This document shows, piece by piece, positions 45,390 through 47,815 of a stretch of 64,000 nt of DNA. This DNA is from Pandoraea faecigallinarum. GTDB lineage: Bacteria; Pseudomonadota; Gammaproteobacteria; Burkholderiales; Burkholderiaceae. The stretch lies in contig NZ_CP011807.3 of the NCBI RefSeq assembly GCF_001029105.3, positions 5,084,001 to 5,148,000 of the forward strand, written 5' to 3'. Numbering within the stretch: position 1 is the first letter of the stretch; every line of letters begins with the position of its first letter. Both the position numbers and the translations under genes were made by a program. Under the pieces are notes generated by a model that saw only the letters and a list, made by a program, of their open reading frames with translations, did not search any database and was not told the origin of the DNA.

Positions 45390-45478
45390 ATATCCATCAC
45401 AACAATCTCGACGTTGATTTGACGCGAACCAGACGCTTGCCATCGGCGAACCGTTAAAACTCTTCCCAGTCACCCGGG

Positions 45479-47815
45479 TCACTGGCCTTGGCGTTCGACG
45501 TTGGGCCCGTCGATTCGCCGGCCGGTGCTTTGCCACGACGTGCTGCGAGTTGCAGCACCTGAGCATCTTCCTGTGCGCTGGCGGTGGCCGGCGCACTGGT
45601 CTGCGCACGACGCGTCGCCGTGCGTGTGGCACCGCCCGCGGCAGCGCGTGCCGGTGCGGCGCTCGCCGCCGAGCCGTGCGTGGCAACCGGCGCGGCCTGC
45701 ATCGCTGCTGGCCGGCTTCGGCGCGACCTGACGCGCCGCCGTGGCGTGCTGCTGCGCGATGGCGTGGCGCACGCCCGGTGACGATGCCGCCTGGAACGCA
45801 TCGCCGACCCGGAAGACGGAGACCGCATCGCGCAAACGATGCGCCTGATCCTCAAGCGATCCGGCCGCGGCCGCCGCTTCTTCCACCAGCGCGGCGTTCT
45901 GCTGCGTGACTTCGTCCATCTGCGTGACGGCGCGATTGACCTGTTCGATGCCGCTCGACTGCTCGGCCGACGCTGCCGAGATCTCGCCCATGATGTCCGT
46001 TACGCGCTGCACGGCCTGCACGATTTCGTCCATCGTCTGACCGGCCTGCGCGACGAGAGCCGAACCGTTTTCCACGCGTCCGACGGAGTCTTCGATAAGC
46101 ACCTTGATTTCCTTGGCAGCCGCCGCGCTGCGCTGCGCCAGCGTGCGCACTTCGCCCGCAACCACGGCGAAGCCACGGCCCTGCTCGCCCGCGCGCGCCG
46201 CTTCCACGGCGGCATTGAGCGCGAGTATGTTGGTCTGGAAGGCAATGCCCTCGATCACACCGATGATGTCGACGATCTTGTGCGAACTCGTCGAGATGCC
46301 CTGCATCGTATCCACGACGTTGCCGACCACCTGACCGCCGCGCGCCGCGATCTCCGAGGCATTCACGGCCAGCACGCTCGCCTGCTTCGCGTTGTCGGCG
46401 TTCTGCTTGACGGTGGCCGTGAGCTGTTCCATCGACGATGCCGTCTGCTCCAGCGAAGCGGCCTGTTGTTCGGTGCGCGCCGACAGATCGGTGTTGCCCG
46501 CGGCGATTTCGCGCGAGGCAATGTTGATCGATTCGATGCCTTCACGCACGTCCGAGACAATGGACAGCAGACTGTTCTTCATTACCGTGAGACCGAACAG
46601 CAACTGGCCGATCTCGTCGCGACCGGTGCCTTCGGCCTTACCCGTGAGATCGCCCGCGGCAATCTGCTTCGACATCGCAAGCGCCACGCGCAGCGGATGA
46701 TTGATGGCGCGGCGCAGAATGCTGCCGAGCACGAACAGCACGACAATGCCGCCGAGCACGGCAACCGCGGTGGCCGCGCGCACGAGCGTGTGCTCCTTCT
46801 GCGATTGCTGATACAGATCGGTCGCCTGTGTGAGTTCGAGGCGCGTGAGTGCGTTGAGCTCGTCGCGCATCGGGCCGTAGGCCGGCTTCACTTTTTCGAG
46901 GTACGTCTGCTGCGCGCCTTCGGCGGACCCCACGCGCAGCATCTCGACCGTCTTTTGCAGACCGTCGGACGTGAAGCGCTGGCGAATCACGTCGAAGCGC
47001 TCGGCTTGCGAGCGCGTGCTCGCGTCGACCGTCTTCATGTACTCCGCCCATTGGCGGTTGATGTCGTCGAGGCTGCCCGCAATTTCGTCGCCGGCGCGCT
47101 TCATCGCATCGAGGTTCGGGCTGCCCACGGCCTCGGCAACCAGCAGCACGTCGCGGTCGAGCTTCTGTCCGATGACGCCGAGCGTGCTCACCGGCACCAT
47201 GCCGTTCTGATACACCTGCAAGAGCTTGGTGTTGCTGCTCGACACGCCCCAAAGCCCCAGCCCGCCGACAATCGCCAGCAGAATCGCCCCCAACACGATG
47301 ATGCCGGTCAGCCGTGCGCGCAGCGTATCCAGACGCACGCGACGCGCAAGCGCCGCAATGCCGCCGCGCTCGACCTGTCCGCCGCGAATGCGCAGATTGC
47401 CCGCTTGCCCGTTACGGAATCGTGCGTAGATGGTTTCGGCTTGCGCCACCGCGCCGGCCGCCGGGCGCACGCGCACCGACGTGTAACCGACCACGGCGTT
47501 GTTTTCGAGCGTCGGCGTGACGGTCGCGAGCACCCAGTAGAAGTCGCCGTTCTTGCGACGGTTCTTGACGAGCCCCGTCCACGTGTCGCCGCGTTTGATC
47601 GTCTCCCACAGGTCGCCGAAGGCTTCGGGCGGCATGTCGGGATGGCGCACGATGTTGTGCGGCGCGCCCAGCAGTTCGTCACGCGAATAGCCGCTCACCT
47701 CCACGAAGGCGGGATTGGCATACGTGATCCGCCCCTTCAGATCCGTCCGAGAGATCAGATACTGATGCTCGCCGATGACGAATTCGTTCTGGGTGACGGG
47801 CTGGTTATCGCGCAC
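45479..47815 (-). CDS. Aer-like PAS-containing chemoreceptor, C-terminal tail frameshifted
   Basis: As read, the product is 778 residues. An Aer-type PAS domain (10-120) carries the FAD-PAS signature: ITYANPAFVEVSGYSRDELL, PHNIVRHPDMP, KNRRKNGDFYWV. A membrane segment is at ~168-190, then a four-helix-bundle-like periplasmic domain to ~345, a second membrane segment, HAMP and a normal signalling domain. From about 45720 to the stop at 45479 the sequence becomes Arg/Cys-rich and unlike any MCP. The frame one base over gives an Ala/Pro/Thr-rich tail ending in GDWEEF, with a stop at 45454. A one-base insertion (or assembly error) near 45695-45720 is the best explanation. Signalling itself may be intact, but the CheR-docking peptide is lost. 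Likely role: redox or energy taxis. Confidence 0.88.
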   Translation of the reverse strand: MRDNQPVTQNEFVIGEHQYLISRTDLKGRITYANPAFVEVSGYSRDELLGAPHNIVRHPDMPPEAFGDLWETIKRGDTWTGLVKNRRKNGDFYWVLATVTPTLENNAVVGYTSVRVRPAAGAVAQAETIYARFRNGQAGNLRIRGGQVERGGIAALARRVRLDTLRARLTGIIVLGAILLAIVGGLGLWGVSSSNTKLLQVYQNGMVPVSTLGVIGQKLDRDVLLVAEAVGSPNLDAMKRAGDEIAGSLDDINRQWAEYMKTVDASTRSQAERFDVIRQRFTSDGLQKTVEMLRVGSAEGAQQTYLEKVKPAYGPMRDELNALTRLELTQATDLYQQSQKEHTLVRAATAVAVLGGIVVLFVLGSILRRAINHPLRVALAMSKQIAAGDLTGKAEGTGRDEIGQLLFGLTVMKNSLLSIVSDVREGIESINIASREIAAGNTDLSARTEQQAASLEQTASSMEQLTATVKQNADNAKQASVLAVNASEIAARGGQVVGNVVDTMQGISTSSHKIVDIIGVIEGIAFQTNILALNAAVEAARAGEQGRGFAVVAGEVRTLAQRSAAAAKEIKVLIEDSVGRVENGSALVAQAGQTMDEIVQAVQRVTDIMGEISAASAEQSSGIEQVNRAVTQMDEVTQQNAALVEEAAAAAGSLEDQAHRLRDAVSVFRVGDAFQAASSPGVRHAIAQQHATAARQVAPKPASSDAGRAGCHARLGGERRTGTRCRGRCHTHGDASCADQCAGHRQRTGRCSGAATRSTSWQSTGRRIDGPNVERQGQ

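Follow-up and report, generated by a model that had tools for sequence, protein, structure and literature searches.

In Escherichia coli, the aerotaxis receptor Aer is not known to have a periplasmic domain or a pentapeptide. The receptors Tar and Tsr combine a four-helix-bundle (4HB/TarH) sensor, a HAMP domain and the hairpin of methyl-accepting chemotaxis proteins (MCPs) with the C-terminal pentapeptide NWETF; when this is missing, methylation is strongly lowered and chemotaxis abolished, according to PMC7390727. The same paper states that many receptors function without a pentapeptide, and that Tap and Trg are receptors of this kind which share the cell with tethered ones. The subject of the present analysis is a chemoreceptor gene of Pandoraea faecigallinarum that resembles each of these systems in part, and in which the CheR docking pentapeptide was found outside the deposited reading frame. 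The gene lies in a window of 64,000 nucleotides (contig NZ_CP011807.3, positions 5,084,001 to 5,148,000), to which all coordinates refer and which carries a flagellar and chemotaxis cluster.

A change of frame in the linker of a chemoreceptor

As deposited, the gene is an open reading frame (ORF) of 778 residues on the minus strand (45479..47815), in which domain searches found PAS at about residues 20-110, TarH and 4HB_MCP_1 at 164-340, HAMP at 367-416 and MCPsignal at 482-637, followed by a linker and a tail. The MCPsignal match (PF00015; 193 bits against a cut-off of 34.6) identifies the product as an MCP. Like Aer, it has an Aer-type PAS domain (family PAS_3; best structure match PDB 8dik, the Aer PAS, 134 bits, E 6.5e-38), and downstream of this it matched MCP I and Aer structures, the signalling part matching 31cj, 'Aerotaxis receptor', with 343 bits. 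The label 'Aer-like' in the original prediction is thus apt for the PAS part, but unlike Aer the receptor also has a periplasmic ligand-binding domain of the Tar/4HB type. The 4HB/TarH sensor, HAMP and MCP hairpin and, in the Pandoraea orthologues, the ending in a linker and an xZxxZ motif, are those of Tar and Tsr, from which the receptor differs in its extra N-terminal PAS and, in the window, in having the pentapeptide out of frame.

In the deposited frame, the motif VFRVGD is followed by an Ala-rich linker and then by an out-of-frame, Arg/Cys-rich tail (45479..45697, minus strand), which ends in VERQGQ and is absent from the relatives' tails that were listed. The displaced frame (ORF 45454-45855, minus strand) reads from the linker through ...AQEDAQVLQLAARRGK... 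to GDWEEF and a stop at 45454, and its part at 45454..45702 holds a linker conserved in the genus together with the docking pentapeptide DWEEF, which is outside the deposited 778-residue frame. Both frames are as they had originally been described. Codon-usage scores, taken in 60-bp steps, favoured the gene's own frame at 45718 (-0.2 versus -1.9) and the displaced frame from about 45657 on. A change of frame between the receptor body and the pentapeptide tail is confirmed, and alignment placed it at about 45697..45715 (minus strand), within the interval of about 45695-45720 that had been predicted.

In the window, the segment from VFRVGD to the stop codon that follows the pentapeptide is 364 bases long (1 modulo 3). 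Counted on the alignment from the codon AAG (45716-45718) to a conserved GCCGCGC-like stretch, the interval has 19 bases in the window and 21 in three close relatives (L116, L117 and L119), and the larger difference in linker length between the window and L116 amounts to whole codons. Read from the sequences, a net loss of two bases appears to be the best single description of the change, although the event may also have been a gain of one base together with the loss of one codon, which is the same modulo 3. The single extra base of the original prediction would have the same effect on the frame, but it does not describe the site in these three relatives, which are two bases longer there. The hypervariability of the linker and the long branch of the window in a tree of receptor bodies (0.081 changes per site) blur the exact event, and only the net change is given.

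The reading frame in related receptors

A search at the DNA level of 31 other genomes of the genus gave an orthologous locus in 29 (L116-L144), mostly 81-95% identical to the window gene (67% in L143 and 61% in L144). The remaining two were not counted as orthologues: one genome (G003) gave no match, and the other (G029) gave a distant match (48%, residues 163-731) to a different receptor. Two loci (L135 and L144) run off their contigs before the end of the gene, which left 27 readable to the end, and in all 27 of these, the window not being counted, the tail continues the frame of the body. The pentapeptide is reached in 26 of the 27, the exception being L119, which has a TAG codon in the linker. 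When the distance between VFRVGD and the last stop was measured in 26 other loci, it was always a multiple of three, which it is not in the window; the 27th, L143, was read directly and is in frame, closing at GDEWEEF. Linker length varies across the genus by whole codons, and the gene is intact in L142. Thus, the frame change is unique to the window among its readable relatives in the genus.

In the protein database, where the best 120 of 7679 matches were considered, all 18 matches of at least 85% identity (P0001-P0017 and P0051, P0017 having 609 residues and P0051 being a partial sequence of 439) end in W-E-E-F, and an xZxxZ ending was present in 72 of the best 120 matches of all kinds. The original prediction had proposed that relatives would end in W-E-x-F and have one base fewer; the ending was found, in frame, but not the smaller base count, L116, L117 and L119 having two bases more.

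Origin of the frame change

We favour, with a probability of about 0.62, a true and recent mutation, a frameshifting insertion or deletion (indel) at the strain or species level in the linker of the P. faecigallinarum receptor. Such an indel, leaving the hypervariable Ala-rich linker of this PAS/4HB chemoreceptor gene a net two bases short of close relatives, would have spared the sensor, the HAMP domain and the hairpin that controls the kinase, and replaced the last part of the linker and DWEEF by an unrelated tail. The frame kept in all 27 readable relatives and the variation of the linker by whole codons count in its favour. The site itself is consistent with this: by eye it has no run of more than two bases, and the net difference from three relatives is of two bases and is therefore a poorer fit to the single-base error usual in long reads.

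Several points nevertheless weigh against a mutation, and they make it possible, if less probable, that the frame change is a residual indel error of a long-read-only assembly and that the gene is in reality intact, its product ending in DWEEF as the orthologues do. Errors that remain in assemblies made with PacBio RS II, HGAP2 and Quiver are mostly indels. These are the instrument and programs given for P. faecigallinarum DSM 23572T in PMC5064223, and the window strain is presumably this one; the species is represented by the assembly of one strain, as consensus sequence alone. Frame is kept in every readable relative, and the tail that would have been cut off shows no decay, with a ratio of non-synonymous to synonymous substitution rates (dN/dS) in the displaced frame of 0.13 against L117 and 0.22-0.23 against L116 and L118, compared with 0.11-0.26 among the intact genes L116-L118 and 0.36 for the pair L120-L121. 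At 42 columns that are invariant in the nine other rows the window tail has a single private change. A relaxed constraint, the sign of a pseudogene, was thus looked for in the tail by dN/dS and none was seen, in a comparison that gives values for the tail only, uses 10 rows of one clade and, covering just about 67 codons, is weak (L142, whose linker is without the anchor, stands outside the set). The tail being still conserved, the break is either recent or not real, and the same conservation would be expected from an assembly error.

A conserved displaced frame would also be expected if ribosomes changed frame in the linker, so that tailless and tailed receptors were both made and CheR tethering tuned by their ratio, and a shift in the linker is where exact joining would not matter. 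We consider this highly improbable: the shifted frame was found in none of the 27 readable relatives, which speaks against a programmed site being conserved; inspection by eye showed neither a slippery heptamer nor a stop at the shift point; and an Rfam scan of 43000-48500 gave no match at the gathering score.

The quality of the surrounding sequence bears on an assembly error. In a homology control, genes were taken by our own ORF and third-codon-position G+C (GC3) filter and best matches of at least 55% identity were kept. When 55 genes (17,503 residues) of a syntenic relative, G012, were compared with the window, 53 aligned in a single frame over 90% or more, one (G012 ORF 6299-6688) was covered to 88% without a split, and one was split between frames, this being the receptor. 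The reverse comparison of window ORFs with G012 flagged 6 of 54, the receptor included. Of the other five, ORF 819-2867 extends beyond the fetched stretch; coverage is partial, without a second frame, for 5093-5476 and 48425-50623; and an N-terminal piece lies in another frame in both 16809-17864 and 53106-53867. Since the forward direction flagged neither of this last pair, their starts were probably set too far upstream by the ORF picker. Within the stretch shared with Pandoraea captiosa (blastn pieces at about 39.7-53.7 kb), no other gene has a net frame-changing indel except for cheW, where the gap list gave a one-base gap inside the last codon. These controls argue against a generally poor assembly here, with which a single residual error would be compatible. 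An ab initio frame-switch scan of the window and 20 further stretches (464 kb), meant to supply a background rate of frameshifts, was rejected after missing the known lesion at all three settings; the calls made at its two loose settings (53 and 116) were of doubtful value, and only the codon scores per frame at the site, given above, were kept from it.

As regards the assembly as a whole, the genome has 5,732,664 bases in 3 contigs, and the plasmids of 402,292 and 124,395 reported in PMC5064223 correspond here to contigs 2 and 3 of 386,625 and 104,368, a difference presumably due to later trimming of the records.

A true mutation also gains support from a second lesion of the same receptor. 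The TAG of L119 lies in the linker, the sister locus L117 being whole and having a sense codon at that position. In P. captiosa LMG 31118 (L005), a strain from a cystic fibrosis patient according to PMC6851202, the linker has an in-frame TAG (codon index 687 in frame 0 of the match), beyond which the frame is still open to GDWEEF. L005 and L119 are probably the same genome, and so do not confirm each other independently. Loss of the tail by substitution is untypical of the indel errors that an assembly would leave. This independent nonsense lesion is the most interesting by-product of the analysis. In the receptor-body tree, which comprised 28 of the 30 loci (L143 and L144 were left out), the window grouped with L117 and L119 with support of 89/83, which is moderate and was not starred.

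A special case of a true mutation, overlapping with it in its odds, is that loss of the tether has been repeated, and possibly selected, in the P. faecigallinarum and P. captiosa clade. Two different lesions occur among the three species compared in this clade, and they affect two of the 28 genes of the genus, the window's included, that could be followed to their ends, in each case downstream of the MCP domain and upstream of the pentapeptide. However, there are only two cases, one of which may be an error, neither lesion shows a sign of being old, and clade support is as given above, so that we regard such repeated, possibly selected loss as quite unlikely. The broader proposal is also unlikely, if a little less so: that the docking tail of one receptor was lost twice by different mutations, so that tethered and untethered forms of it make up a series found in nature, which would suggest that tethering of a single receptor is dispensable, or selected against, where a neighbour keeps the pentapeptide. 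P. captiosa keeps NGDWETF on the neighbouring receptor.

Neighbouring genes and consequences for adaptation

The next receptor downstream, identified by domain search as of the Tar/Tsr type (43573..45351, minus strand), ends in NGDWETF and, of the 16 MCPsignal places that the genome has, is alone in having an xZxxZ ending in frame; two of the 16 would bear the pentapeptide if the gene described here were in frame. A third receptor of the cluster (41680..43338, minus strand) has no pentapeptide. Apart from the families searched (receptor domains, CheR and CheB), the names of genes in the cluster are putative. CheR (40598..41539, minus strand) has as its closest solved relatives 1af7 and 1bc5 (341 bits, versus 113 bits for 5xly), which we take to be Salmonella CheR, 1bc5 being the complex with the pentapeptide. 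Those of CheB (38846..39925, minus strand) are 6ymz (550 bits), presumably the Pectobacterium enzyme, and the Salmonella enzyme 1a2o (529 bits). For the Pectobacterium CheB, PMC7698151 reports no binding of pentapeptides. By sequence, the window CheB is slightly nearer to 6ymz than to 1a2o, so that loss of a tether for CheB is not established. Elsewhere in the genome, the 104-kb contig 3 (L094) opens with 12 kb that carry genes for a MobF relaxase and for VirB-type type IV secretion and match the Pandoraea vervacti plasmid NZ_CP010898.2 with about 90% identity over 94%.

If the mutation is real, CheR, and perhaps CheB, would no longer be tethered by the deposited receptor, which would then be methylated less efficiently, by enzyme tethered to the DWETF neighbour or from solution. 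The earlier suggestion of a receptor that cannot tether CheR/CheB follows for the deposited 778-residue protein, but a large effect on adaptation does not, as the DWETF receptor remains. In being served in this way the deposited protein would resemble Tap and Trg, from which it differs in that its state would be due to a recent lesion in a gene that has the tail in relatives. Because the linker tolerates changes of length and a second tether is present in the same cluster, such losses may be nearly neutral. The likely outcome is that one receptor adapts less efficiently, with its tethered neighbour softening the effect.

Searches of the literature on Pandoraea chemotaxis and on frameshifts or pseudogenes affecting the chemoreceptor pentapeptide found no account of this lesion. 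Its origin is probably biological and its consequence modest; the gene is of a common kind, and the lesion is not a new system but a minor loss of recent date or else an error of sequencing. If real, it means that the che cluster, with two pentapeptide receptors, has lost the CheR tether of one and kept that of the DWETF neighbour. The finding matters mainly for annotation: that this receptor is without a CheR tether should not be concluded from the deposited protein.
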